11,069 nucleotides of DNA from assembly GCA_011051425.1 (NCBI GenBank), contig DRLF01000171.1, positions 1 to 11,069 on the forward strand, in the 5' to 3' direction. Below are positions 1-11,069 of this stretch, piece after piece. This DNA is from Thiolapillus brandeum (GTDB lineage: Bacteria; Pseudomonadota; Gammaproteobacteria; Chromatiales; Chromatiaceae). The notes beneath the pieces are model-generated. The model did not search any database. It was not told the DNA's origin and was given only the letters and a program-made list of their open reading frames with translations. The first letter of the stretch is position 1; every line of letters starts with the position of its first letter. Made by a program: the position numbers and the translations under genes.

Positions 1-399
1 GAACACTTCCAGAAACTGCTGGTACTGCTCCAGCACCGCCGGGCTGGCCACCATGGCCAGCTTGTGGGTGAGAAACTGCAGGCGCACATGATCCTGTTCG
101 GTGACCGCCTTGTCCAGCATCAGCTGCTCCATATGGCTGATGAAGTCCATGTAGATCTCGGACTTGAGTTCGATGAACTTGATGCTCTGCTCTTTCTTCA
201 GCTCCACTTCCGTCTGCTTGTTGAGCAGCATGGCGGTAATGAGCACCGTGGCCACCGTACCCAGAATGATCAGCACGATCTCCTGGGTAAAGGGCATCTG
301 GTCCATCACCCGGTAGGCATAACGCAGGAAGGCATAGCCTCCCACCACCACGGTGGCAGTCAGACTCAGGTAGATCAGGTTTTCACGAAATGTCTTCAT
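1..399 (-). CDS. Small two-helix membrane protein with cytoplasmic coiled coil, unknown function (C-terminus outside window)
   Basis: I do not recognise this family. The frame is open from an ATG at 399 to the window edge, giving 133 residues without a stop. Two hydrophobic stretches (about residues 8-26 and 40-60) are separated by a short polar loop. They are followed by a charged, probably helical segment (about 60-100, beginning LNKQTEVELKKEQ), so the likely layout is two membrane helices and a helical soluble tail. The start is supported by a GGGAAGG tract, although it abuts the ATG with no usual spacer. The gene begins only 10 bases after the permease stop and is probably translationally coupled to it. 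As last visible member of the operon it may be an accessory to the ABC/vWA module, which is inference from position only. Confidence 0.7.
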   Translation of the reverse strand, partial: MKTFRENLIYLSLTATVVVGGYAFLRYAYRVMDQMPFTQEIVLIILGTVATVLITAMLLNKQTEVELKKEQSIKFIELKSEIYMDFISHMEQLMLDKAVTEQDHVRLQFLTHKLAMVASPAVLEQYQQFLEVF

Positions 400-409
400 C
401 CTTCCCGGT

Positions 410-1621
410 TCAGATTTCCCGCAGGCCTTCCGAAGGCTCCACACGTGCGGCGCGAATACCCGCGAGTATAGCAGCCAGGATGGAAGCACCCGCGGTTATC
501 GCCAGAGCAATAGCATAGTGTTCCGGCAGCAGGCGGCAGATCTTCTGGGCTGTTTCCAGCTGGGGCGCGAGCATGAAATTGATGCTCCAGGCAGCAGCAA
601 GATAGATGCCGCAGGCCAGCGCCCAACCGAAAACGGCGGTGTACAACCCCTGCACCACGGGAAACAGGATGATATCGCCGGTACGGAAACCCACCAGGCG
701 CAGCACCGACAATTCCTTGCGTTTGCGGTCCACGTTGGCCCACAGACTGGCCCCCAGGGAGAGGGAGAAGCCCCCCAGGCCGATGAGGGCGATGGCCCAG
801 TAGATGGCCGACAGGGTATTGTCCATGCGCCGCACGCTTTCGATATCCGCCGCCTGGGTGCGCACTTCGATACCACTGCGGTCGAAACTGTCGCTCAGGG
901 CCGCCACGTCGTAGATAGAGCGGGCATACAGGCGGAAACCGGTGTAGCTGCGCGCCTGTACCGCCGAACTCCCCTCCCAGCCCAGGGCAGGAACGGCATG
1001 GCCATCGCGGAAATCCTCCAGCGCCTCCACCAGCATCACCGAAGCAAACAGACCGTCTCGCCTGAAACCTGTGGCCGGTGCCACCGCCGCCACCTGCAGA
1101 TCCATGGCGACACGCTCCTTCCTGCCCCGGAAGCGACGCTGCAGGCTGCCTTCGATATGATCACCGGCACTCACCTGCAGTTTCTTTGCAGCACTGGCGG
1201 ACAGCACGACCCTGTCCATACCGGAAGGCGGCTCAAGCTGCGGATCCAGCAAAGGATCCCCTTTCGCTGACGGTATCACCTCGAACTGCAGGATACGCCC
1301 GGCCTGCTCGCTGCTCACCGACAGGGTGGACGCAATGCTGCGGATACGCGGCACGATGAAAGCCACATCGTCCCGCTTGCGCAGGCTGTCTATCCATACG
1401 CGGTCGTAATGGCCACTGCCCACGGGACGAATCTCGCGCTTGGCCGGATTTTCGACCAGCTCGTCTATCATGGTGCCCACGATGCCGAACTTCAGCCCGA
1501 ACAGCACCAGCATGGGGCCCAGCACCGCAGCCAGCGCCAGCACGAAGCAGATGGAGATCTGCCATTCGTGAAAATAGTCCCTGCTGGCCAGGGCCAGGGT
1601 CTGACGTTTCTGACGCAGCAT
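410..1621 (-). CDS. FtsX/MacB-type ABC transporter permease (TagS-like?)
   Basis: This 403-residue inner-membrane protein has the FtsX-family layout. There is one N-terminal helix (about 23-45), a large periplasmic domain (about 46-268), then three helices (about 271-297, 318-346 and 368-392). The end RVEPSEGLREI matches the family's usual end after the last helix. The segment RKRKELSVLRLVG (299-311), between helices 2 and 3, is also typical of FtsX permeases. Such permeases usually do not import small molecules; with their ATPase they drive work on periplasmic partners (LolCDE, MacB, FtsEX). The start codon shares one base with the ATPase stop, so the two are coupled and very likely form one transporter. 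Next to a vWA protein, TagS of the type VI threonine-phosphorylation pathway is the closest precedent I know, but that assignment is inference. A lipoprotein- or peptide-handling transporter is the main alternative. Confidence 0.88.
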   Translation of the reverse strand: MLRQKRQTLALASRDYFHEWQISICFVLALAAVLGPMLVLFGLKFGIVGTMIDELVENPAKREIRPVGSGHYDRVWIDSLRKRDDVAFIVPRIRSIASTLSVSSEQAGRILQFEVIPSAKGDPLLDPQLEPPSGMDRVVLSASAAKKLQVSAGDHIEGSLQRRFRGRKERVAMDLQVAAVAPATGFRRDGLFASVMLVEALEDFRDGHAVPALGWEGSSAVQARSYTGFRLYARSIYDVAALSDSFDRSGIEVRTQAADIESVRRMDNTLSAIYWAIALIGLGGFSLSLGASLWANVDRKRKELSVLRLVGFRTGDIILFPVVQGLYTAVFGWALACGIYLAAAWSINFMLAPQLETAQKICRLLPEHYAIALAITAGASILAAILAGIRAARVEPSEGLREI

Positions 1622-2364
1622 CAGCCACTCACCACGGTTTCTGTCATGCGGCCATCCTTCGAGCGCCGGGTGTGGTGTGCCAGCCGGCGCAGCCCGAGCT
1701 GCTTGATATGCCGCCAGGCATGGCTGGCAACGATAACGGTAATGTTGCGCTCTTCCACCATGCCGATAAAAAGTGACATGATCTTTTCCGCCGCAAAGGG
1801 ATCCACCGATGCCGTGGGTTCGTCTGCAATGATGATAGCCGGGCGGTGCGCCAGCGCCCGGCCGATGGCCACACGCTGGCGTTCCCCCGTGGACAGGGCG
1901 TCGGGAAGTTTTTTCAGATGGCGCGTCAGTCCCAGCTCCCTCGCCAGGGTCTCCACCGTGCCGTCATCCTTCATACCCAGCATCTGGCGGGAGAGATTGA
2001 TGTTGTCGTAGATGTTCAGATAAGGCAGCAGCCCCCCGGTCTGCATGACATATCCCATGTGCGCCTTGCGCAGGGCGGCCAGCCGGTTGCGCCTGTGCTT
2101 GCGCCAGGCAAGGCCGATATCGACCGCTGTGTTGCTGTCCGCATGGAAGCTGAAGTTACCGATGTCGCTGGGCTGCAGAATGAAGGCCAGCATATCCAGC
2201 AGGGTGGACTTGCCGCAGCCACTCTCGCCGATCAGGGCGATCTTCTCGCCCCGCTGGATGCGCAGGGACGGCACCCGCAGCCCGAAGCTGTAGCCGTTGC
2301 TGCTACGGGTCTTGGCGACATCCTTGAGCTGGTAGATGACCCCGGAAGGGCTGTTTTCCTGCAT
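1621..2364 (-). CDS. ABC transporter ATP-binding protein (LolD/MacB class, TagT-like?)
   Basis: This 247-residue ATPase is complete. It has Walker A GESGCGKST (46-54), Q-loop Gln108, signature LSTGERQR (157-164), Walker B IIIADEP (177-183) with catalytic Glu182, D-loop SVD (186-188) and H-loop His215. Length and sequence fit the class that pairs with FtsX-type permeases. Its start codon shares one base with the stop of the vWA gene, and its stop shares one base with the permease start. The three genes therefore read as a coupled unit. It should hydrolyse ATP at the cytoplasmic face to move the permease's periplasmic domain. The Arg-rich tail after the H-loop (RRLAHHTRRSKDGR) is more basic than usual. 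The ATPase call is secure; the TagT comparison rests on neighbours only. Confidence 0.93.
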   Translation of the reverse strand: MQENSPSGVIYQLKDVAKTRSSNGYSFGLRVPSLRIQRGEKIALIGESGCGKSTLLDMLAFILQPSDIGNFSFHADSNTAVDIGLAWRKHRRNRLAALRKAHMGYVMQTGGLLPYLNIYDNINLSRQMLGMKDDGTVETLARELGLTRHLKKLPDALSTGERQRVAIGRALAHRPAIIIADEPTASVDPFAAEKIMSLFIGMVEERNITVIVASHAWRHIKQLGLRRLAHHTRRSKDGRMTETVVSG

Positions 2365-4325
2365 CAGGGCAGCATATCCAGGGACAGGGGAAAGACCGAA
2401 TCACCGCTGACCGGGCCGTTGTCCAGACTGATCCACAGATCGGTGTTGTCATGCAGGGCCTGATAGTAGGTGATCTTCTCTTCCAGGCGGCGCAGGAATT
2501 CAATCTGCTGTGCCGCCGGCCAGCTCTGCCAGTCGTCCAGGGACAGGGCCATGACCTCGCCGGTGTAGGGCAGCCCTTCGATATAGTCGCCGATGAAGCC
2601 CATGTCCACCAGGCTGTTGCCCTCCCCGGCGGTGGTCGCCGTGGTACGCCCCAGTTCTTCCGGGTTGCGCGAAATGGTCGCGGCCAGGCTCTTGAGTTCG
2701 TTGATGAAATTCTGGGGCGACAGCAGTCCATCCTCCGCGGTGCGCAGCACCTGGCGCAGGATATCGTGCATATCTGACAGCTGATCCCGGGTAAGCAGCA
2801 CCCGCACGTCCACGGTCTGCCGTTGTGGCTGGCTCATGTCATGATCCAGCATCCAGGCGTTGAACACCCGGGGAGGCTGTCCCTGAAACTGTTGCAGGTA
2901 CTGCATGCGCAGGGCATAGCCCAGTTTTTCCACCTTGAGTTGCAATTCGGTGAGACGGGTATTCTCTTTCGCCTCGGGCCGAGCAGGCTGCGGCTGTGCT
3001 TCCAGCCCCTGGGCGACCTGGGCGGAAATCTGCCCGGCAAGGCTGTCCAGTACGGTGCCGAACTCCTCCACGTTCCCTGTCGGCACGCCGTAATACAGGC
3101 TGCCGATACCGGGAAAGTCGGACAGCTCGCGGTACTGGGCTTCCGCCCTGGCATGATCCGCGTTTTCGGACGGAGTCTTCAGGTGCAGCACGAAGATAGC
3201 GATGCCGTTGTCCTGGGCCAGCTGGCGCAGGGCCGCCGTTCCCAGCCCGGTGGTGGACAGGGGATCGTCACCCTCCCGCGCCCCGGCATCGGTGATGAGT
3301 ACGATATAGCGGGCGTCGTGCCCCTGCCAGCCCATGCCCTCGATGGCCTGCTGCAGGCCGGCATAGGCGTCCTCGCGGAAATCCTTGCTGGAAACCTTCG
3401 CCGCAGAGAGCTGGTCCACCTTTTCCAGAAACACGCCGGGATCACGCCCCTGCTCCAGGGTGACGTAGGTGCGCGCGGTGTAATCCAGTCCGGGTGCCGC
3501 CTTCGCATTGTCGCGGAATGCCACCAGGCCGAAATTCACCCTGCCCAGCTGCCCCGCATCCCCCAGCTGGTCGTAGATTTTCATCACCGCCTCACGGGTG
3601 CGCTGGATGTATTCATCCATGGAGAGGCTGGCGTCGATGACGAACACCAGACCGGCGGTGTATTCCCGCTTCGCCCCGTCAGCCGCCGGCACCGCCTTCC
3701 TGCTGGCCAGCGGTACGCTGGCGATTTTCAGCATGCGCGCCTGTTCGGTTCCCAGCCAGGTGTCCTTGAAATCGAGGATGGGCACCAGGTAGAAATCCTT
3801 GCGGATGTCGATATGACCGGCGGGCTGGATCGCCACCACCGGCGAGTCTGCAGGCAATTCTCCCTGTACCGCCTGTTCGTAGAGCTTGCGGTAGGTTTCG
3901 CTGCCCGGCTGCTTGGCCAGCGCCTCAAGGGAAGCCTTGTCGCGCAGCATCAGCACCCGCTCATGTCCTGATGGATCACGGAACACCACGGTGAGCCCCT
4001 GGTTCCAGGAGATACTGTCCTTCGCCGCCAGCCAGCCGGAGAGGCTGCCGTGCTTGTCCAAGCCCACCAGCAGCCATTCATTTCCCTGAACCGGCTTGCG
4101 CTCATAGACATAAAAGGCGCTGAATGGCGTAACCGCCGCACCCTGTTCATCTCCCGGCTGATCATGGAGGCGGGCATCCGGAATGGCCAGCACCCGCTGA
4201 TAGAGTGCCTGCTTGCCTTCCATGAGCAGTGGCTTTTTCGTATCCGCCAGCGCCTGCCCGCCCAGCAGAACCAGGAGCACCAGTAAACCCAAACCACCGA
4301 TCTTCATCATTTGCTTCATTTCCAT
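2364..4325 (-). CDS. Exported von Willebrand factor A domain protein with SH3-like N-terminal region (PpkA periplasmic-half-like)
   Basis: The 653-residue protein starts with a signal sequence (hydrophobic about 9-22, then GGQALA ending at 27), so it is probably periplasmic or anchored by that helix. Residues about 35-110 look like a bacterial SH3-type fold (EWLLVGLD, then SLSGWLAAKDSI). The vWA domain spans about 222-435, with MIDAS motif DASLS (231-235) and LITDAG (343-348, Asp346). The usual second-loop MIDAS threonine is not obvious near FREDAYAG (317-324). A Pro/Ala/Glu linker (about 441-455) leads to a mostly helical C-terminal region (about 456-653) that I cannot assign. Three start codons are possible. 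The one at 4325 overlaps the upstream gene by 10 bases, while the one at 4319 gives a classic ATGA overlap. vWA domains bind protein partners, here plausibly the adjacent ABC transporter. The layout resembles PpkA after its kinase and membrane helix. Confidence 0.87.
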   Translation of the reverse strand: MEMKQMMKIGGLGLLVLLVLLGGQALADTKKPLLMEGKQALYQRVLAIPDARLHDQPGDEQGAAVTPFSAFYVYERKPVQGNEWLLVGLDKHGSLSGWLAAKDSISWNQGLTVVFRDPSGHERVLMLRDKASLEALAKQPGSETYRKLYEQAVQGELPADSPVVAIQPAGHIDIRKDFYLVPILDFKDTWLGTEQARMLKIASVPLASRKAVPAADGAKREYTAGLVFVIDASLSMDEYIQRTREAVMKIYDQLGDAGQLGRVNFGLVAFRDNAKAAPGLDYTARTYVTLEQGRDPGVFLEKVDQLSAAKVSSKDFREDAYAGLQQAIEGMGWQGHDARYIVLITDAGAREGDDPLSTTGLGTAALRQLAQDNGIAIFVLHLKTPSENADHARAEAQYRELSDFPGIGSLYYGVPTGNVEEFGTVLDSLAGQISAQVAQGLEAQPQPARPEAKENTRLTELQLKVEKLGYALRMQYLQQFQGQPPRVFNAWMLDHDMSQPQRQTVDVRVLLTRDQLSDMHDILRQVLRTAEDGLLSPQNFINELKSLAATISRNPEELGRTTATTAGEGNSLVDMGFIGDYIEGLPYTGEVMALSLDDWQSWPAAQQIEFLRRLEEKITYYQALHDNTDLWISLDNGPVSGDSVFPLSLDMLP

Positions 4326-4945
4326 TTTTCCAGCAGTACGGCCGCCTGCTCATCGCCTGAGCTGGCCGCTTTTTCCAGCTCAACCAGCAGTTGCTGCAGA
4401 CGCTGCTGCGCCACGTCGCTGCCGTTGCGCCGCGCCTGCTCGTACCACTTGTGGGCCTGCACCACGTCCGGCTGGGAAAGCACCGTGCTCCCCGCCCTGA
4501 AATACGCAGGATCCGCCTGTTGGGCCAGCATCATGGCCGCTTCGGCAGAACCGTCTTTCGCCGCTTTGAAATACAGCAGCCAGGCATCCCCCAGCTTCCC
4601 CTCCGACTGGAAGGCCTGCGCCTGGGCAAGCAGCGCATCCACACCCAGCCCTTCGCTGGCAGCCTTGGCAAGATAGGCACGCGCCGCCTCGCCTTCCACC
4701 CCGGCAGAGCCTGTTTTGGTTTCAGCGGGCGCTTCATTCGCGGCAGTCCCGGCCCGGCTCTCTGCAGGGACTGTGGGTGCGGGCGTCTCTGCGGGCGCGG
4801 CTCCCGGCAGGGGTATGTCTTCTGCCTTTTTCTCCTTGTCCGGCACCATCAGCACCGCAACCACGGTTACGGCGATCACCAGGCTGATGATCAGCCACAG
4901 GCGGTTGGAGGTGGAATTGTTGCTCTTGTTTTGTCCTTCTTGCAT
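4316..4945 (-). CDS. Membrane-anchored Sel1-like/TPR repeat protein
   Basis: The 209-residue product has a short polar N-terminus, one membrane helix (about 15-34), a Pro/Ala/Glu/Thr-rich linker (about 41-85) and a helical repeat region (about 86-206). At least two units resemble Sel1-like repeats: AWLLYFKAAKDGSAEAAMML (121-140) and AHKWYEQARRNGSDVAQQRL (164-183). The topology suggests a short cytoplasmic end and a periplasmic repeat domain for protein-protein contacts. I chose the ATG at 4945. The frame stays open upstream to another ATG at 5056, but that extension (Phe/Arg-rich, without a clear domain) would run into the divergent promoter region. No good ribosome site precedes 4945, so the start is not certain. 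It is the first gene of the left operon and overlaps the vWA gene. Confidence 0.8.
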   Translation of the reverse strand: MQEGQNKSNNSTSNRLWLIISLVIAVTVVAVLMVPDKEKKAEDIPLPGAAPAETPAPTVPAESRAGTAANEAPAETKTGSAGVEGEAARAYLAKAASEGLGVDALLAQAQAFQSEGKLGDAWLLYFKAAKDGSAEAAMMLAQQADPAYFRAGSTVLSQPDVVQAHKWYEQARRNGSDVAQQRLQQLLVELEKAASSGDEQAAVLLEKWK

Positions 4946-4995
4946 GGAGACACCGGCAAACCTGGAGGGTATGACTAACACTCTTCGACGAAAGA

Positions 4996-5008
4996 GCGAT
5001 ATTATCGC
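4996..5008. promoter_or_regulatory. Hyphenated palindrome in the divergent intergenic region, possible operator/promoter of the left operon
   Basis: GCGATA-T-TATCGC is a perfect 6+1+6 palindrome between the Sel1-repeat gene and the nuclease gene. On the minus strand it contains GATAAT, an acceptable -10 hexamer about 55 bases upstream of the start at 4945; no good -35 accompanies it. The site could be an operator overlapping a weak promoter that needs an activator, which is inference. Confidence 0.35.
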
Positions 5009-5101
5009 ACAACCATCCGACTGTAACCCAGGGAAGCTCTGAACATGTCCGAACACGCTTCCAGCGCCCGGACCCGCTAGGGAGCTTCCTGACCGACACC
5101 C

Positions 5102-5722
5102 ATGAAAACAAGAAACCTTCTCCTTGCTCTCCTCATACTGGCTCTCTGGGCCGCCACCGCCTGCTCACGCCCACCCCAGCGCAATTATCTGGACAGCCTG
5201 CGCAGCTACTGGCAGGGCGTCTACCCCAACGGTGGCGAGACCCTCTATTGTGGCCGGAAATTCCGCCCTTTCGATCGCAGCGTGAATGTCGAGCACGTCT
5301 ATCCCATGAGCTGGGTGACGAAAAAACTGGGCTGCGGCAAGCGCGAGCAATGCCGCCACAACAGCCCGCGCTTCAACCTCATCGAGTCGGACATGCATAA
5401 CATGTATCCCGCCCGCAAGGACGTCAACCAGACCCGCGGCGCCATGGCCTTCGGCATCATCGAAGGGGAAAACCACAAGTACAGGGGCTGTGATTTCGAG
5501 GTGGATTTCCGCAAGCGGCGGGTCGAGCCCCGCCCGGAGGTCCGGGGGCGCATCGCGCGGGCCATGCTCTACATGTCGGACGAGTACGGTCTGGACATCT
5601 ACCACAAGCAACGCAAGATGCTGGAGAAGTGGAACCGGCAGTATCCGCCGGATGCCGAGGAAAAACGTCACAACAGGGCGGTTGCCAGGATCCAGGGCAA
5701 ACCCAATCCCTATATCCGATAG
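5102..5722 (+). CDS. Endonuclease I family secreted nuclease (EndA/NucM-type)
   Basis: This 206-residue protein belongs to the endonuclease I family of beta-beta-alpha-metal nucleases, which cut DNA, and sometimes RNA, nonspecifically outside the cytoplasm. The family core is visible: VEHVYPMSW (63-71) with the likely general base His65, then FNLIESDMHNMYPA (91-104) and NQTRGAMAFG (109-118), whose Asn/Asp/His residues would hold the metal. The N-terminus is a hydrophobic signal ending TAC at Cys21. That could be a lipobox, though Ala rather than Leu at -3 makes it imperfect. Cys50, Cys78, Cys84 and Cys130 could form disulfides. An AGGGAG tract lies 17 bases before the ATG, further than usual. 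The gene is alone, divergent from the vWA operon and upstream of hemE. Likely roles are nutrient scavenging from DNA or defence against incoming DNA. Confidence 0.92.
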   Translation: MKTRNLLLALLILALWAATACSRPPQRNYLDSLRSYWQGVYPNGGETLYCGRKFRPFDRSVNVEHVYPMSWVTKKLGCGKREQCRHNSPRFNLIESDMHNMYPARKDVNQTRGAMAFGIIEGENHKYRGCDFEVDFRKRRVEPRPEVRGRIARAMLYMSDEYGLDIYHKQRKMLEKWNRQYPPDAEEKRHNRAVARIQGKPNPYIR

Positions 5723-5725
5723 TCA

Positions 5726-5756
5726 TTCCCCCAAATCCAATGGAAGGGTGTAAAAT
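5726..5756 (+). promoter_or_regulatory. Possible hemE promoter
   Basis: TAAAAT at 5751-5756, preceded by TG, is a fair -10 hexamer 33 bases before the hemE ATG. The best -35 candidate, TTCCCC at 5726-5731, is poor and 19 bases away. With only 67 bases between the nuclease stop and hemE, readthrough is also possible. Confidence 0.35.
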
Positions 5757-5789
5757 CCCCGCCCATTGCCGAACAGGACCCGGACCACC

Positions 5790-6854
5790 ATGAGCACATT
5801 GAAGAACGACCGCTTTCTGCGCGCCCTGCTGCGCCAGCCCGTTGACATGACACCGGTGTGGATGATGCGCCAGGCGGGACGTTATCTCCCCGAGTACCGC
5901 GCCACCCGTGAAAAGGCCGGTGATTTCCTCAGCCTGTGCCAGAATCCGGAACTGGCCTGCGAAGTCACCCTCCAGCCCCTGGAGCGCTTCCCCCTGGACG
6001 CCGCCATCCTGTTCTCCGACATTCTTACCATACCGGACGCCATGGGGCTGGGCCTGTATTTCGAGGAAGGTGAAGGGCCACGCTTCAAGCACCCGGTTCA
6101 GGACAAGGCTGCTATCGATGCCCTGCCGGTGCCAGACCCCGAAGAAGAACTGCGCTATGTGATGGACGCCGTGCGCACCATTCGCCGGGAGCTGGATGGC
6201 CGGGTGCCCCTCATCGGCTTCTCCGGCAGCCCCTGGACACTGGCCACCTACATGGTGGAAGGCGGCAGCACCAAGAATTTCGCTCTGTCCAAGGGCATGA
6301 TGTTCGACCGCCCGGAGCTCATGCACGCCCTGCTGGACAAACTGGCGCAATCCGTGACTTCTTATCTCAACGCCCAGATCGCCGCCGGCGCCCAGGCGGT
6401 GATGATCTTCGACACCTGGGGCGGCACCCTCACCCCCTCGGACTACAAGGAATTCTCCCTGGCCTACATGCAGCGCATCGTGGAAGGCCTGACCCGGGAA
6501 GCCGAAGGCCGCAAGGTGCCTGTGGTGCTGTTCACCAAAAGCGGCGGCCAGTGGCTGGAAGCCATGGCGGACACGGGCTGCGATGCCCTGGGGCTGGACT
6601 GGACCACCGATATCGGTGAGGCCAGGGAACGTGTAGGCCACCGCGTTGCCCTGCAGGGCAACATGGATCCCAGCACCCTGTACGCCTCACCCGAAGTCAT
6701 CCGCCGCTCGGTGGCCAATATCCTGGAAAACTACGGCCTCGGCACCGGCCATGTGTTCAATCTGGGCCATGGCATCCATCCGGGCATAGATCCGGAACAT
6801 GCCGGCGCCATGATCGAAGCCGTTCACGAGCTGAGCAAGCAGTATCATAAATAA
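5790..6854 (+). CDS. hemE: Uroporphyrinogen decarboxylase
   Basis: HemE removes four acetate carboxyls from uroporphyrinogen III to give coproporphyrinogen III, the fifth universal step from 5-aminolevulinate to haem, in the cytoplasm and without cofactor. The 354 residues are full length. The conserved substrate-binding motif [11 protein letters not shown] is at 27-37, the catalytic Asp77 lies in [13 protein letters not shown], Tyr154 lies in [15 protein letters not shown], and the histidine of NLGHGIHP is His327. The ATG at 5790 is preferred over a TTG at 5766 in the same frame. It gives the family's normal N-terminus ([16 protein letters not shown]) and has an AGGA 11 bases upstream. The gene is followed at once by a strong terminator, so it ends its transcript. 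Confidence 0.98.
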
Positions 6855-6891
6855 AAAGCCACTGAAAAGCTTTTGTTTCCAGTGGCTTTTT
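6853..6891. terminator. Bidirectional intrinsic terminator between hemE and coq7
   Basis: AAAAAGCCACTG (6853-6864) pairs perfectly with CAGTGGCTTTTT (6880-6891). The T run ends the hemE transcript. The matching A run becomes a U run on the minus strand and ends the coq7 transcript, whose stop is 30 bases away. The hemE stop codon overlaps the first stem bases. Confidence 0.92.
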
Positions 6892-6920
6892 AACCCCGAA
6901 GCGGCGGTGGGGCGCGCTTT

Positions 6921-7574
6921 CTACAGGCGGTAGACAGACGCGGTCATGAGCTTCGAGGTCAATTTCATGGCCACCCTGACGGGACCGGGCAGTTCCGCGC
7001 CGCCATGGGCTTTTGCCGTCTGGCCATGGCGGATCTCGTCTTCCTTCATCTGTTCCAGGATCGCACGGGTACGGCAATCCGACTCCGGCACCTGCGCCAG
7101 GTGCTCGTCCAGGTGTCCCTCGACCTGCTTTTCGGTTTCGGCCACGAAACCCAGGCTCCACTTGTCACCTGCCAGTCCGGCAGCCGCACCGAGTGCGAAT
7201 GAGCCGGCATACCATAGCGGGTTGAGAATACTCAGGCGGCCACCCAGTTCTTCGACACGCTGCTCACACCAGTCCAGGTGATCGTTTTCCTCTGCCGCAG
7301 AACGCTCCATGCTGCGCCGCACTTCTTCCTTTCGCGCTGTCAGCGCCTGCCCCTGGTACAGCGCCTGGGCGCAGACCTCGCCCGTGTGATTGATGCGCAT
7401 CAGGCGGGCCACATGGTCTTTCTGGGATTCCGGCAATTCGGATTCCGTGCATTCTTCGGCGGGATTGGAACGTTCGGTCACCAGCGGGCGGCCGAACAGC
7501 GTGCGCAGGGCCTGGTCCAGATTGACGACCAGACGGTCTGCCGCAGTAAAGTTTCTGTGCGCTTCTGTTTTCAT
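6921..7574 (-). CDS. coq7: Coq7-type 2-polyprenyl-3-methyl-6-methoxy-1,4-benzoquinol monooxygenase
   Basis: Coq7 is the di-iron hydroxylase for the last ring hydroxylation of ubiquinone synthesis (position C6). It works at the membrane surface and needs O2. The 217 residues hold two ligand repeats: Glu66 in INHTGEVCAQALY with Glu96-x-x-His99 in EENDHLDWCE, and Glu148 in AETEKQVEGHL with Glu180-x-x-His183 in KEDEIRHGQTA. The spacing matches the known family. A hydrophobic stretch (about 121-136, WYAGSFALGAAAGLAG) is the usual membrane-contact helix, and the end SKLMTASVYRL is typical. It starts 10 bases after the GlcF-like gene stops, with no clear ribosome site, so it is probably co-transcribed and coupled. 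Many gammaproteobacteria use UbiF instead; Coq7 is a common replacement. Confidence 0.96.
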   Translation of the reverse strand: MKTEAHRNFTAADRLVVNLDQALRTLFGRPLVTERSNPAEECTESELPESQKDHVARLMRINHTGEVCAQALYQGQALTARKEEVRRSMERSAAEENDHLDWCEQRVEELGGRLSILNPLWYAGSFALGAAAGLAGDKWSLGFVAETEKQVEGHLDEHLAQVPESDCRTRAILEQMKEDEIRHGQTAKAHGGAELPGPVRVAMKLTSKLMTASVYRL

Positions 7575-7584
7575 AGAAGAAATT

Positions 7585-8727
7585 CTAATCTGTTATCAGC
7601 TGGCGCGCCAGCAGGGTGACAGGATGCAGGTATTCAGGATCCTGACCATCCCCAGCGGACTGCAGGTGCAAACGACAGGATAAATTGCTGCTCAGAACAA
7701 AATCCGGCGAGACATCGGCTATTTGCCGGACGAAGGGTTCCCGCAGCCGCTCCGCCACCCCGGGCCGGAGTACCGCTCCAGTCCCACCGGCGCCACAACA
7801 GGCACCCTTCTTCCCCACCGCTTCAGCCTTCAGTTCCGGAATGCATGCAAGCAGTTTCATCACGGCATCACCACTGTGCAGGACGTTTTCCAGCGTGCAG
7901 GGAATATGAACCGCCGCGGATTTTGGCAACGGCCTGAACTCCAACCGGGAAATCACCTTTTCCTGGGCCAGGAACGCAGCAATGTCCCTGTGCCTTGCAC
8001 CAAGCACCTCGTAAGCATCGAGTTGCGCACCGCAACCGCTAGCGATGCTGATCACAGCGTCCAGCCCCCCGGTCGCAGCAAAGGCGGCTTCATTGGCGGC
8101 CGCCAGTCGCACCGCCCTGCCGATGTTACCCGCGTGAGCATCGAGGGCACCGCAACAGACCTGTTTTGCTGGTACTGCCACCTCGTAGCCAGCCCGCAGC
8201 AACAGGGAAATCGCCGAGTCGACAGCAACACTGTCGAACAGACTGCCCGTGCACCCCACAAACAATCCCACCCTGCCAACGGGTTTCGATATGTCAGGAC
8301 GATAGACAGGGGCAGGTCTGGGCGCATCTGTACGGGCCTGACGGGCCAGTATACTCAGGCGGGGAAAAACCGGAAGAACCGGCCTGCCCAGGCGCAACAG
8401 CCATCGCATCAGCCCCGGCCGGGGCAGCACCACATTCAGCAAACGGCTTTTTATACCCTGTTGCGAACGCACCAGCGACAGGCCCTGATCCATGATTTTC
8501 GCGAACTGCACTTCAGACGGGCACATGGCCTCGCAGCGCCGGCACAGCAGACAGCTGTTCAAAACTTCCGCGCTGTGATCATCCGGCAGGATCTGACCCT
8601 GAGCAAGCGCCTGAACGAGCGTGATCCGCCCCCGCGGCGACATCGCCTCACTGGCCGTCAGACCATATGTCGGGCACTCAGCCAGGCAAAGACCGCATTT
8701 GACGCAACGCGCCGTCTCCACAATCAT
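7585..8727 (-). CDS. GlcF/LutA-type iron-sulfur oxidoreductase subunit (two [4Fe-4S] motifs and two CCG domains)
   Basis: The 380-residue protein begins with two ferredoxin-type motifs, Cys8-x2-Cys11-x2-Cys14-x3-Cys18-Pro and Cys59-x2-Cys62-x2-Cys65-x3-Cys69-Pro, for two [4Fe-4S] clusters. Two CCG (DUF224) domains follow: Cys159, Cys191-Cys192 and Cys232, then Cys277, Cys310-Cys311 and Cys351. This is the layout of glycolate oxidase subunit GlcF and of related lactate and glycerol-3-phosphate dehydrogenase electron-transfer subunits. It would pass electrons from a flavoprotein dehydrogenase towards quinone. No FAD subunit (GlcD/GlcE) is nearby, so the substrate is unknown; the gene is tied to coq7, 10 bases downstream. 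AGGA lies 11 bases before the ATG, supporting the start. The family call is firm, while the exact name glcF is not. Confidence 0.9.
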   Translation of the reverse strand: MIVETARCVKCGLCLAECPTYGLTASEAMSPRGRITLVQALAQGQILPDDHSAEVLNSCLLCRRCEAMCPSEVQFAKIMDQGLSLVRSQQGIKSRLLNVVLPRPGLMRWLLRLGRPVLPVFPRLSILARQARTDAPRPAPVYRPDISKPVGRVGLFVGCTGSLFDSVAVDSAISLLLRAGYEVAVPAKQVCCGALDAHAGNIGRAVRLAAANEAAFAATGGLDAVISIASGCGAQLDAYEVLGARHRDIAAFLAQEKVISRLEFRPLPKSAAVHIPCTLENVLHSGDAVMKLLACIPELKAEAVGKKGACCGAGGTGAVLRPGVAERLREPFVRQIADVSPDFVLSSNLSCRLHLQSAGDGQDPEYLHPVTLLARQLITD

Positions 8728-8752
8728 GGAGCCGCGTTTCCTGGCGTATAAT
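8724..8752 (+). promoter_or_regulatory. Probable promoter of the ferredoxin gene
   Basis: A perfect -10 TATAAT lies at 8747-8752, 34 bases before the ferredoxin ATG. The -35 region at 17-bp spacing (TCATGG, 8724-8729) is poor and overlaps the divergent gene's start codon, so an activator or a weak promoter is likely. Confidence 0.55.
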
Positions 8753-8786
8753 CGGCATACTGACCGCAGCAGAACAGTATTCGTCT

Positions 8787-9092
8787 ATGTCTTACTTCAA
8801 ATATCATGTGTTTGTCTGTACCAATAAGCGCGAGGAGGGCGCCTGCTGCGCCTGTCTTGGCGCCACAAACGCACGGACCTACCTCAAGAAACGCTGCAAG
8901 GAATTGGGCATTCACGGAGAAGGCCAGGTTCGCATCAACAATGCCGGCTGTCTCGACCGCTGCGCTCAGGGTCCCGTCATGGTGATCTATCCCGAAGAAA
9001 CCTGGTATACCTATGTAGATAGTGAGGATCTGGATGAAATCATAACACGCCACCTGCAGCACGGGCAGATCGTAGAGCGCCTGAAAATCTGA
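8787..9092 (+). CDS. Thioredoxin-fold (2Fe-2S) ferredoxin
   Basis: The 101-residue protein starts MSYFKYHVFVCTNKREEG and fits the small thioredoxin-like [2Fe-2S] ferredoxin family. The likely ligands are Cys11, Cys23, Cys55 and Cys59, the last two in AGCLDRCAQGP, and YPEETWYTYV is the usual strand after the cluster loops. Three more cysteines, Cys20, Cys21 and Cys37, are present; CACCAC-like crowding around the second ligand leaves some doubt about whether Cys20, Cys21 or Cys23 binds iron. It is a soluble one-electron carrier with unknown partner. It is divergent from the GlcF-like gene 59 bases away, and a shared redox role is possible but not shown. No strong ribosome site precedes the ATG. 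Confidence 0.9.
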   Translation: MSYFKYHVFVCTNKREEGACCACLGATNARTYLKKRCKELGIHGEGQVRINNAGCLDRCAQGPVMVIYPEETWYTYVDSEDLDEIITRHLQHGQIVERLKI

Positions 9093-9288
9093 CCGGGACA
9101 GCCGATAGTACTACTACCTCTCTGATCATTCAGGCACTTGCATGAACCGGTACGGCAAACAGGTGCAATAGGGCAACTCGATTGGCAGGCCGATCAACCG
9201 ATTTCGAAAACACAGTTGCTGCCAGGGGTTCCAAGGCTGCTCCAGCCTGACATTCTTACTATTGCCATCCACATCACATAAAATTTTC
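9093..9288. other. Gene-free stretch between the ferredoxin gene and the small RNA promoter
   Basis: I see no coding frame with gene-like features here. The only structure is a perfect 6-bp hairpin at 9234-9248 (AGGCTG, loop CTC, CAGCCT) without a following T run. It could protect or loosely end the ferredoxin transcript. The rest of the 448-base gap up to rplM is accounted for by the small RNA and rplM promoter features. Confidence 0.6.
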
Positions 9289-9317
9289 TTGACAGGAAAC
9301 GCCCAATATTAGAAAAT
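9289..9317 (+). promoter_or_regulatory. Sigma70-type promoter of the candidate small RNA
   Basis: A perfect -35 TTGACA (9289-9294), a 17-bp spacer and the -10 GAAAAT (9312-9317, four of six consensus bases) predict transcription from about 9323-9325. That is exactly where a long inverted repeat begins, and the coincidence supports both calls. Confidence 0.7.
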
Positions 9318-9322
9318 GCTCA

Positions 9323-9370
9323 CATACTGATTTTCCTCTCCTCCTCCCCCTTTGTTGGAAAATCAGTATG
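9323..9370. repeat. Perfect 14-bp inverted repeat
   Basis: CATACTGATTTTCC (9323-9336) and GGAAAATCAGTATG (9357-9370) are exact reverse complements separated by 20 bases. The repeat forms hairpin 1 of the candidate small RNA. No target duplication or transposase supports a mobile-element end. Confidence 0.95.
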
Positions 9371-9429
9371 CACCATCCTCCTTTGGTGGTTATTATTTAG
9401 CGCGGCACCCCCTGCCGCGCTATTTTTTT
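9324..9429 (+). ncRNA. Candidate three-hairpin small RNA with C/U-rich anti-Shine-Dalgarno loops
   Basis: The transcript would be about 106 nt. Hairpin 1 is a perfect 14-bp inverted repeat (9323-9336 with 9357-9370, 13 bp if transcription starts at 9324) around a 20-base pyrimidine loop containing CTCCTCCTCCCCC. Hairpin 2 is CACCA (9371-9375) with TGGTG (9384-9388) around TCCTCCTT. Hairpin 3 is a perfect 10-bp terminator with a seven-T tract. The promoter, first base, paired body and terminator fit together without gaps, and no reading frame is involved. C-rich loops that pair with G-rich translation start sites are known in several unrelated bacterial sRNAs, for example Xanthomonas sX13 and the CCUCCUCCC-motif RNAs of alphaproteobacteria. 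I infer a similar way of working, not homology. It could instead be a long attenuated leader of rplM, but rplM has its own promoter downstream. Confidence 0.72.
9398..9429 (+). terminator. Strong intrinsic terminator of the candidate small RNA
   Basis: TAGCGCGGCA (9398-9407) and TGCCGCGCTA (9413-9422) form a perfect 10-bp GC-rich stem with loop CCCCC, followed directly by seven T (9423-9429). No T run follows on the minus strand, so the signal is plus-strand only. Confidence 0.93.
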
Positions 9430-9457
9430 GCCTGTTTGTGCGGAATACAGAAAGGGC

Positions 9458-9486
9458 TTGTATCTCATTTTCAAGTCGGGTATTAT
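9458..9486 (+). promoter_or_regulatory. rplM-rpsI promoter
   Basis: TTGTAT (9458-9463), a 17-bp spacer and TATTAT (9481-9486) make a good sigma70 promoter, followed by the GC-rich discriminator TCGCGCC. Such discriminators are typical of ribosomal promoters under stringent (ppGpp) control. The predicted start is near 9493, giving a leader of about 48 nt. Confidence 0.75.
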
Positions 9487-9505
9487 TCGCGCCCTTTCGT
9501 GGAGT

Positions 9506-9523
9506 ATGGCGGGAATTCGCCAT
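9506..9523 (+). promoter_or_regulatory. Leader hairpin upstream of rplM, possible L13 autoregulatory site
   Basis: ATGGCG (9506-9511) pairs with CGCCAT (9518-9523) around loop GGAATT, 17 bases before the rplM start. In E. coli, L13 represses its own operon through the mRNA leader. Whether this hairpin is the equivalent site is inference. Confidence 0.4.
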
Positions 9524-9540
9524 TTTTGGGAACGAGACAA

Positions 9541-9969
9541 ATGACAACGGTAAGCGCTAAGCCGGCGGAAGTACGCCGGGAATGGTATGTAGTAGATGCA
9601 GAGGGCAAGACCCTGGGTCGCATGGCGAGTGAAATTGCACGCCGGCTGAAAGGCAAGCACAAGCCTATATATACGCCGCATGTAGACACGGGCGACTATG
9701 TTGTGGTGATCAACGCGGAAAAACTGCGCGTCACCGGCAACAAGCTGCAGGACAAGATGTACCATCATCACACGGGTTACATTGGCAACCTGAAAAGCAT
9801 CAACCTGGGCAAACTGCTGGAGAAAGCACCTGAGCGTGTACTGCAAAAAGCAGTCAAAGGCATGCTGCCGCGCAACCCTCTGGGTCGCTCCATGCTGAAA
9901 AAGCTGAAGGTTTACGCCGGCACTCAGCATCCGCATAGCGCCCAGCAGCCCAAACCCCTCGACATCTGA
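9541..9969 (+). CDS. rplM: 50S ribosomal protein L13
   Basis: The 142 residues match the length of E. coli L13 and its conserved blocks: [20 protein letters not shown] (13-32), [18 protein letters not shown] (44-61), [11 protein letters not shown] (72-82), [20 protein letters not shown] (107-126) and the ending PKPLDI. L13 binds 23S rRNA early in large-subunit assembly. The ATG at 9541 is preferred over upstream in-frame starts because it gives the normal N-terminus [16 protein letters not shown]. The region upstream is promoter and small RNA. A weak ribosome site (GGGAACGAG) precedes it. It is followed 25 bases later by rpsI, the standard bacterial L13-S9 operon. Confidence 0.99.
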
Positions 9970-9994
9970 ACACAGCTGATACGGATCTGACGAA

Positions 9995-10387
9995 ATGGCA
10001 CAGCAACAAAATTACGGCACCGGCCGACGCAAAACTTCCGCAGCCCGGGTTTTTCTGACTCCCGGTGACGGCAGTATCACAGTAAACGGCCGTCCTCTGG
10101 ATGAATTCTTTGGCCGCGAAACTGCTCGCATGATCGTGCGCCAGCCTCTAGAAGCCACCGACCTGGCGGAAAAGATCAGCGTGAGTGTCACGGTTAGTGG
10201 CGGCGGCACAACAGGCCAGGCCGGCGCTATCCGTCATGGCATCGCACGCGCGCTTTTGGAGTATGACGAAGAGCAACGCTCCACCTTGCGCCAGGCAGGT
10301 TACCTGACCCGTGACGCACGTATGGTAGAACGCAAGAAAGTGGGACTGCACAAGGCCCGCAAGCGTCCCCAGTACTCCAAGCGTTAA
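9995..10387 (+). CDS. rpsI: 30S ribosomal protein S9
   Basis: The 130 residues equal E. coli S9 in length. The N-terminal motif [16 protein letters not shown] (6-21), the central [20 protein letters not shown] (69-88) and the very basic tail [17 protein letters not shown] (114-130) are diagnostic. The last residues of that tail reach the P-site tRNA in the 30S subunit. It is the second gene of the rplM operon, 25 bases after L13. The petABC or sspA genes that often follow rpsI in gammaproteobacteria are not here; a porin gene comes next. Confidence 0.99.
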
Positions 10388-10403
10388 TCGAACATCTCCA
10401 TCC

Positions 10404-10451
10404 GTCCTCCCCGATCCCATGGGGAGGACAGCCCCGCCCTCCGGTTTTGTT
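10404..10451 (+). terminator. Probable terminator of rplM-rpsI with two competing hairpins
   Basis: GTCCTCCCC (10404-10412) pairs perfectly with GGGGAGGAC (10421-10429), but the T-rich stretch GGTTTTGTT begins only at 10443. Alternatively GGAGG (10423-10427) pairs with CCTCC (10438-10442), directly before that T-rich stretch. The second form is the better intrinsic terminator, and the two exclude each other. Confidence 0.55.
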
Positions 10452-10517
10452 ACTTTTCTGCAACAAAACAACATCGTGTGATTTTTTTACAAAAAAGTGT
10501 TGCGTTATTGTAAAAAA
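10444..10517. repeat. Set of inverted repeats in the porin promoter region
   Basis: GTTTTGTT (10444-10451) and AACAAAAC (10462-10469) are exact complements 10 bases apart. TTTTTTACAA (10483-10492) and TTGTAAAAAA (10508-10517) are exact complements 15 bases apart. A third pair, GTTGC (10499-10503) with GCAAC (10518-10522), interleaves with the second. The second pair straddles the porin -35, so a repressor or activator site is plausible; I cannot name the regulator. Confidence 0.6.
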
Positions 10518-10528
10518 GCAACTATTAT
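10500..10528 (+). promoter_or_regulatory. Porin promoter
   Basis: TTGCGT (10500-10505), a 17-bp spacer and TATTAT (10523-10528) form a good sigma70 promoter. The predicted start near 10535 gives a 48-nt leader with the ribosome site GGAG at 10571-10574, eight bases before the porin ATG. Confidence 0.75.
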
Positions 10529-10582
10529 TGCTCCTGCTTAGACATGTTTTTAAACCTAATTTTATTTAGCGGAGTATTCCAA

Positions 10583-11069
10583 ATGAAAAAGAAGCTTCTA
10601 GCATTGGCAGTCGCTGCAGCCCTGCCCATGGTTTCTCAGGCTGCGACAGCCGATGTGACCATTTATGGTAAAGTTCACACCTCCATCGATTACATCAATC
10701 CTGATGCAAGCGGTGCCGATAGCATCTATGATGTAACCAGCCGTGCATCCCGTCTGGGTTTCAAGGGTTCCGAAGATCTGGGCGATGGCCTGAAACTGAT
10801 CTGGAAGATGGAGACTCAGTACAACACCGCAGAAGGCGGCTTCCAGGGCGGTCGTAACGCCTACATCGGCCTGGCCGGCGGCTGGGGTACTTTCCTTTAT
10901 GGTAACCACGACACGCCAATGAAAATGTCCACCGGCAAACTGGATATCTTCAGTGACGAACTGTCTGACTACAATGCCACTGTTGGCCTGATCGACATCC
11001 GTGCCGCAGACGCCATTGCCTATGTTTCTCCTTCTTTTGGCGGTTTGACCCTGATCGGCGCTGTTGTCC
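10583..11069 (+). CDS. Gram-negative general porin (C-terminus outside window)
   Basis: The frame runs open from the ATG at 10583 to the edge, 162 residues. The signal peptide MKKKLLALAVAAALPMVSQA leads to mature sequence beginning near residue 21-24, with a first strand DVTIYGKVHTSIDY (24-37). SRLGFKGSEDLGDGLKLIWK (56-75) and RNAYIGLAGGWGTFLYGNHD (91-110) are hallmarks of the general trimeric porin family, including its strand-turn-strand pattern. The protein would be a 16-stranded outer-membrane barrel for small hydrophilic solutes; family members usually have about 320-400 residues, so less than half is visible. GGAG eight bases before the ATG supports the start. Its own strong promoter and the terminator after rpsI make it a separate unit. 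Substrate preference cannot be read from this part. Confidence 0.94.
   Translation, partial: MKKKLLALAVAAALPMVSQAATADVTIYGKVHTSIDYINPDASGADSIYDVTSRASRLGFKGSEDLGDGLKLIWKMETQYNTAEGGFQGGRNAYIGLAGGWGTFLYGNHDTPMKMSTGKLDIFSDELSDYNATVGLIDIRAADAIAYVSPSFGGLTLIGAVV

Follow-up and report, generated by a model that had tools for sequence, protein, structure and literature searches.

The described small RNAs (sRNAs) closest to the one considered here are those of Rfam family RF02278, "Betaproteobacteria toxic small RNA" (Burkholderia ncS03, ncS05, ncS27 and ncS62, and bdhR1), and S17 of Bordetella pertussis. The element under study is a predicted 106-nt sRNA with three hairpins, located in front of rplM at positions 9324-9429 (forward strand) of a window of 11,069 nt from Thiolapillus brandeum (GCA_011051425.1, contig DRLF01000171.1, positions 1-11,069, forward strand). 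RF02278 was called exclusive to Betaproteobacteria (PMC7011215; this and all other papers are cited from excerpts). A match has also been reported in one strain of Aeromonas salmonicida, a gammaproteobacterium (PMC8780938), so the family is not strictly unknown in Gammaproteobacteria. Members were named toxic because cloned copies slow the growth of Escherichia coli (PMC4603805, PMC5688073). S17, described in a preprint, adjoins coq7, is related to bdhR1 and RF02278, and represses the sigma-54 activator BP2158, its target sites lying near or over ribosome-binding sites (PMC11722255). The NmsR siblings of Neisseria (RF02877) repress genes of the tricarboxylic acid cycle via two anti-Shine-Dalgarno (anti-SD) motifs (PMC5362039). 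Our analysis makes it very probable that the window encodes a conserved regulatory sRNA, the exposed loops of which mimic the mRNA-binding sequence of the ribosome. It appears to be a gammaproteobacterial relative, hitherto overlooked, of a family described chiefly in Betaproteobacteria.

The sRNA promoter (9289-9317, forward strand) consists of the -35 element TTGACA (9289-9294), a 17-nt spacer ending in ATATTA (9306-9311) and the -10 element GAAAAT (9312-9317), from which a first base at about 9324 is predicted. Hairpin 1 (stem-loop 1, SL1; 9323-9370) has a 14-bp stem (9323-9336 paired with 9357-9370) and a 20-nt loop, UCUCCUCCUCCCCCUUUGUU, which is made up of C and U except for one G and contains the anti-SD motif CUCCUCC. 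Hairpin 2 (SL2, 9371-9388), with the stem CACCA/UGGUG (9371-9375/9384-9388), exposes the second anti-SD stretch in an 8-nt loop of C and U only, UCCUCCUU. The intrinsic terminator (9398-9429) is formed by a perfect 10-bp stem (9398-9407/9413-9422), the loop CCCCC and seven T residues (9423-9429). The original prediction had described this promoter with its coordinates, the perfect 14-bp inverted repeat, the second hairpin, the perfect 10-bp terminator with U7 and the C/U loops, and all of these could be located as described. The 106-nt RNA folds at -41.2 kcal/mol, compared with -15.6 +/- 2.4 kcal/mol for shuffled sequences (0 of 200 equal; z -10.6), and the predicted unpaired probability per base in the anti-SD stretches is 0.86-1.0 in loop 1 and 0.67-1.0 in loop 2. 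By itself the promoter-like site is at chance level, with 1 found and 1.1 expected in shuffles, and its weight derives from conservation.

For the genus, a sample of 15 genomes including that of the window itself (G000) was searched, and 14 of them contained a strong match (E<=2.8e-33), which covered the full RNA in 13 and was interrupted by a contig end in one (G003). The remaining genome (G012) gave a chance-level match only. Downstream of the match lies rplM in 13 of the 14 loci, the contig of G003 stopping before rplM is reached. After alignment of 13 genus copies, 97.8% of the cells in stem 1 were paired, and both sides had changed in 6 of the 14 pairs. Double-change cells numbered 12, against 4.2 +/- 1.6 in shuffled alignments (0 of 500 as high) and far lower values in slid controls, a comparison to be read with the caveat that kinship alone can push sequences above such shuffles without any structure. 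The number of further pair types in this stem was unexceptional (135 of 500 shuffles equally high). The anti-SD hairpin, ACCATCCTCCTTTGGTGG, is unchanged across 13 aligned genus copies at rplM. The claim of a compact, independent sRNA gene is supported by the compensatory changes in stem 1 together with the kept C-rich loops; absence of stems and loops in close relatives had been named in advance as what would speak against it, and both stem 1 and the loops are kept in the genus copies compared.

In one respect the genus copies at rplM have departed from the arrangement found elsewhere. The linker motif CUCCUCC of the Rfam consensus is lost and an equivalent motif is situated in the SL1 loop in 13 of 13 genus copies, and in none of the 66 other rplM copies, 52 of which have the linker motif and 14 neither form (all pattern-based). 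The linker motif is present in the sister copies of the same genus (L029-L038). This relocation explains the resemblance to sX13 of Xanthomonas perceived in the original prediction, and probably also why ar14 outscores RF02278 in the window.

To follow the RNA beyond the genus, a covariance model (R1) was built from 38 aligned copies of the sRNA family, in which TCCTCCTTT is unchanged and the terminator stem shows compensatory changes. R1 matched 145 of the 147 genomes of the order, with 1-5 matches per matching genome, and in the class 189 of 369 genomes at E<=0.01 and 106 of 369 at E<=1e-8; some of the weaker matches in the class may be due to chance, given the weak control matches outside it. 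That control, a draw of 200 genomes from the phylum searched at E<=1e-4, gave matches in seven: the window's own, three further class members and three from elsewhere in the phylum. The six non-self genomes all stayed at or below 34 bits. A scan of labelled genomes with the core pattern found at least 118 stretches. Among the matches listed are Sedimenticola, Thiocapsa, Chromatium, Halochromatium, Thiohalocapsa, Thioalkalivibrio, Thiothrix, Beggiatoa, Thiomargarita, Candidatus Thiodiazotropha, Arenicella, many Gammaproteobacteria without a genus name and one member of the betaproteobacterial family Gallionellaceae. A viral origin was also considered and gained no support, as viral contigs gave 0 exact pattern matches. 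The 179 distinct copies fetched were picked by motif or score, so their distribution over loci is no census: 79 lie before rplM, 50 between queA and tgt on the strand opposite to these two genes, 5 have the ferredoxin gene as their sole recognized neighbour, and the other 45 are at different loci or too close to a contig end for assignment. A 5' hairpin upstream of the anti-SD part was found in 82 of the 86 copies evaluated (z<-1.5), its sequence varying from copy to copy.

Several observations concern the number of copies per genome. Tandem R1 matches, two to three within a few hundred bases, occur at G305:C3:141775-142057, G198:C27:1125-1336, G166:C83:5201-5394, G324:C107:2418-2765 and G193:C26:7264-7558, which suggests local duplication of the RNA in some lineages. 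In one genus genome a third family copy (L047, G001:C48), with a promoter of 18-nt spacing and a long stem 1, is at neither of the usual sites. The genome of the window itself contains a second anti-SD-like element (L059:999-1157; G000:C220, minus strand), located 3' of an open reading frame (ORF) judged pyrE-like by eye. It comprises ACTCCTCC, a TGAC/GTCA hairpin and a terminator, scores 24.9 bits with RF02278 and is preceded by the FNR-like sequence TTGAGCCAGATCAA; it may be another sRNA.

The promoter offered a further means of recognizing these RNAs. In many copies ATATTA or a close variant ends the spacer before the -10 element; the promoter profile was anchored on this element and is therefore no proof of it. 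Direct pattern searches were each controlled with the reversed pattern. With at most one mismatch, TTGACA-N11-ATATTAGA-NN-AT had 14 matches in the 15 genus genomes, all at the sRNA promoter (reversed control 0), and the exact form TTGACA-N11-ATATTAGA-NNN-T was found 62 times in a set of 99 genomes from the order (reversed control 0). Sixty of these 62 are at the sRNA, as seen from R1 matches just downstream (29 of 30 and 25 of 26) and, for six in the genus, from the coordinates. As to the two exceptions, one (L353) shares the conserved start and then passes into a repeat, and the other (L381) is on a contig that ends a few bases past the promoter. The signature is thus near-exclusive to these RNAs in the order searched; it is not universal, since 48 of the 99 genomes had no exact match. 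Another candidate element, ATTAG-N6-CTnA, was present in only 29 of 74 promoters and was dropped.

Second copies had been seen in the same genus genomes already in the first genus search. These sister copies, mostly situated between queA and tgt, keep the usual form of the RNA, and differ in the promoter. The palindrome TTGA-N6-TCAA was found in 9 of the 50 queA-tgt copies and in one edge copy, all from the window's genus, and in 0 of 77 rplM copies, with 0.2 per class expected from shuffles. It is located 22-23 nt before the -10 element in 10 of 10 genus sister copies, where it replaces the -35 element, and it is centred near -41, like class II FNR/CRP sites. Given this FNR/CRP-like box in place of a -35 element, the rplM copy and the sister copy probably respond to different signals. 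In one further copy (L046, G017), which has a long additional 5' structure, the palindrome lies some 113 nt before the core; with this different distance it was left out of the count.

When the window was compared with Rfam, no match was obtained at the curated cut-offs, and the listing was then extended down to E<=1. Of the linker, anti-SD hairpin and terminator that make up its consensus, the window has the latter two, the CUCCUCC linker being replaced by the motif in the long SL1 loop. Among five other family copies scanned, RF02278 was the best match in four (L041, L030, L042 and L020, 25.4-33.6 bits), and L043 gave none. In the class, RF02278 matched 49 of 143 genomes at E<=0.01, one of them above the cut-off, and 8 of the ten best matches (L049-L058) are at rplM. 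The genome of the best one belongs to an order in which 24 of 60 genomes pass the RF02278 cut-off, and 30 loci of this order, none of them used in building R1, served as the comparison set. The rplM-rpsI pair adjoins in 16 of the 30 and coq7 is present in the fetched flank in 7; an rplM or coq7 neighbourhood is thus a feature shared by many loci, though no formal family criterion. R1 in turn matched 28 of the 30 loci (24-66 bits), ATATTAGA stands upstream in 7 of these 28, and here too some genomes carry several copies. The order is taken as betaproteobacterial because of the family name and because one locus (L339) distantly resembles Caballeronia and Burkholderia records: against plasmid records these two were best, aligning with a third of the query at 73-77% identity, in transporter genes, which is consistent with Betaproteobacteria and no proof. 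With this presumed placement, the original statement that no RNA had been described at this locus is not supported, as RF02278 RNAs precede rplM in 16 of the 30 loci.

Several points weigh against so close a relationship. The window scores 24.3 bits with RF02278, short of the membership cut-off of 50, and ar14 (RF02344) scores higher there, with 36.4 bits against its own cut-off of 58.8. The best class match (L049), the only one to pass the RF02278 cut-off, is not beside rplM, and neither are 14 of the 30 comparison loci, whose betaproteobacterial status is itself inferred; at two of them (L339 and L342) R1 found no match. In the phylum control, weak R1 matches of up to 32.7 bits appeared outside the class in three genomes. 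An anti-SD hairpin with a terminator is moreover a short pattern that could have arisen independently. As the Rfam score was not reached and the linker motif is missing, the window RNA was classed as a divergent variant and not as a member of RF02278; common descent with RF02278 and S17 is nevertheless likely.

The other described systems resemble the window RNA in some features and differ in others. S17 has a single-stranded C/U site and a loop complementary to ribosome-binding regions, as well as coq7 as a neighbour, but it is 190 nt long, is shortened by RNase E to some 70 nt and is enhanced by BvgA~P (PMC11722255), whereas the window RNA is predicted to have about 106 nt and a hairpin 1 of its own. 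The NmsRs share the three hairpins, the anti-SD motifs in linker and SL2 loop and the occurrence as sibling copies (PMC5362039), but are located between dsbB and lrp; membership in RF02877 (cut-off 52) was rejected, the window being absent from its matches at E<=1 and copy L041 reaching 26.4 bits. In ar14/NfeR1, the cuckoo RNA of Alphaproteobacteria, CCUCCUCCC occupies the hairpin loops (PMC10746234). Loop 1 of the window contains it as well, while loops 2 (UCCUCCUU) and 3 (CCCCC) do not, so that it is found in one of three hairpins, and with 36.4 bits against 58.8 in a different class ar14 membership was rejected. For sX13, three stable stems, C-rich loops and repression of mRNAs with start-proximal G-rich motifs are reported (PMC3771888), and the analogy drawn in the original prediction is one of function only: sX13 homologues are always downstream of polA, in Xanthomonadaceae, and have three 4C/5C loops (PMC3771888), whereas the window locus is the ferredoxin-rplM interval, C runs of at least 4 occur in its loops 1 and 3 only, and sX13 is absent from the window's Rfam matches at E<=1. 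A literature search, with most subscription papers outside its scope, found no study of the window RNA in Chromatiales or Sedimenticola, nor was the string TCCTCCTTTGGTGG found in the text it covered.

As for function, AAGGAGGA is the complement of the loop UCCUCCUU, and both loops are predicted to be accessible. UCCUCCUU closely resembles the 3'-terminal sequence of 16S rRNA. The two C/U loops would thus mimic the anti-SD of 16S rRNA and pair with exposed purine-rich Shine-Dalgarno (SD) sequences of selected mRNAs. Such pairing would block 30S binding and thereby reduce translation, probably for many genes simultaneously, while stem 1 and the terminator would shield the RNA and present the loops. 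SD occlusion in trans is proposed by analogy, because the NmsRs repress translation with this arrangement, and S17 does so with one much like it (PMC5362039, PMC11722255). The trans-acting regulator of the original prediction fits this SD-directed action, although its motif is better named anti-SD than simply C-rich.

To be set against this proposal is that no convincing target emerged from six genomes: AAAGGAGGA-N3-9-ATG occurs 2-7 times per genome, and its 29 sites, against 5 for the reversed control, are mostly before unrelated or unlikely ORFs. A longer complement, CCAAAGGAGGA, gave 37 sites in the 15 genomes, mostly the sRNA genes themselves, and the only other one in G000 lies in front of an ORF without a Pfam match in its first 150 residues. 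A weak lead is a hemerythrin-like gene (Pfam PF01814, below cut-off), a candidate target with seven homologues in the 15 genomes, where AAGGAGGATGTA stands before the ATG in 5 of the 5 leaders that the pattern could read.

All things considered, we hold with good confidence that the RNA would be an independently transcribed sRNA of some 106 nt with factor-independent termination, a gammaproteobacterial orthologue of RF02278/S17 at the coq7-ferredoxin-rplM locus, and a repressor acting by occlusion of SD sequences. The sequences themselves show the anatomy of the gene, its conservation and covariation, the family, the common locus and the family-specific promoter; transcription, pairing with SD sequences, repression and orthology with RF02278 are inferred. 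C-rich loops evolve easily, and an unrelated sRNA of the ar14/cuckoo or sX13 kind could have converged on this form, with no descent in common with RF02278. The highest-scoring Rfam family in the window is ar14 (36.4 bits), and its motif CCUCCUCCC is present in loop 1 (PMC10746234); both would agree with such convergence. It is unlikely all the same, as RF02278 was the best match in 4 of the 5 other copies scanned (all except L043), the rplM/coq7 locus is common to RF02278 loci of the presumed betaproteobacterial order, 7 of 28 of these have ATATTAGA upstream, and, in the comparison of 79 rplM copies, the relocated loop motif occurred in a single genus.

Two other explanations retain the anti-SD loops or the locus and change the mode of action. 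The loops could serve as a decoy, titrating an RNA-binding protein or competing globally with 16S rRNA, with no choice of targets. The likeness of the loop to the 16S rRNA 3' end would suit this. The slow growth of E. coli with cloned RF02278 members points the same way (PMC4603805, PMC5688073), but entry into stationary phase was impaired only modestly and a target of S17 was tested directly (PMC11722255); as matching genomes of the order moreover carry just 1-5 R1 matches, we regard a decoy as quite improbable. Ribosomal leaders often contain terminators, and with 79 of the 179 copies before rplM, the hairpins and terminator might form a cis-acting leader or attenuator that controls read-through into rplM-rpsI. 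This is set back mainly by the 50 queA-tgt copies, which are on the strand opposite to their neighbours. In addition, the anti-SD core is common to copies at different loci, no Rfam leader was found at cut-off, and a separate rplM promoter (TTGTAT-17-TATTAT, 9458-9486, forward strand) probably lies 3' of the sRNA terminator, judging by eye, with similar sequence in several genus loci. A leader is hence very improbable, and a trans-acting, SD-occluding sRNA related to RF02278 remains the preferred reading.

The surroundings of the sRNA gene in the window are as follows. Upstream on the forward strand is a gene for a 2Fe-2S thioredoxin-like ferredoxin (8787-9092, PF01257), beyond which an iron-sulfur protein and, as the third gene upstream, coq7 (6921-7574, minus strand, PF03232) are encoded, a neighbourhood common to some RF02278 loci. 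Downstream follow rplM (ribosomal protein L13, 9541-9969, PF00572) and rpsI (ribosomal protein S9, 9995-10387, PF00380), both on the forward strand. Further away, positions 5102-5722 encode an Endonuclease I family protein (PF04231) with an N-terminal segment that looks like a signal or lipoprotein sequence by eye, and adjacent genes for an FtsX-like permease, an ABC ATPase and a von Willebrand A domain protein (410-4325, minus strand) probably form one operon.

How the locus may have evolved can be sketched tentatively. Possibly, and with somewhat more doubt than confidence on our part, an anti-SD sRNA stood at coq7/ferredoxin-rplM in the common ancestor of Beta- and Gammaproteobacteria and was passed on by vertical descent in sulfur oxidisers and many further lineages, under a private promoter, TTGACA-N11-ATATTAGA, that occurs at no other gene in the order searched. 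The pair in the window's genus would then have split by signal, one copy remodelling its loops and the other swapping its -35 element for an FNR/CRP-type box. If this is true, the private promoter suggests a dedicated regulator or a specialised polymerase requirement, and an ancestral regulator of translation became two signal-specific ones in one genus. The natural relocation of the anti-SD motif provides a test of which parts of an anti-SD sRNA matter, and the near-exclusive signature is a direct handle on the regulator of the sRNA. Among the matches listed, isolates with names from Thiocapsa, Thiothrix, Thioalkalivibrio and Sedimenticola carry copies; the records of Thiocapsa roseopersicina DSM 217 and Sedimenticola hydrogenitrophicus SN1189, for instance, each contain the core. 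RF02278/S17 RNAs have so far been essentially betaproteobacterial (PMC7011215, PMC11722255), bar the Aeromonas match (PMC8780938); if the family holds at rplM across Gammaproteobacteria, it would be an ancient regulatory RNA that was hidden by the Rfam cut-off.
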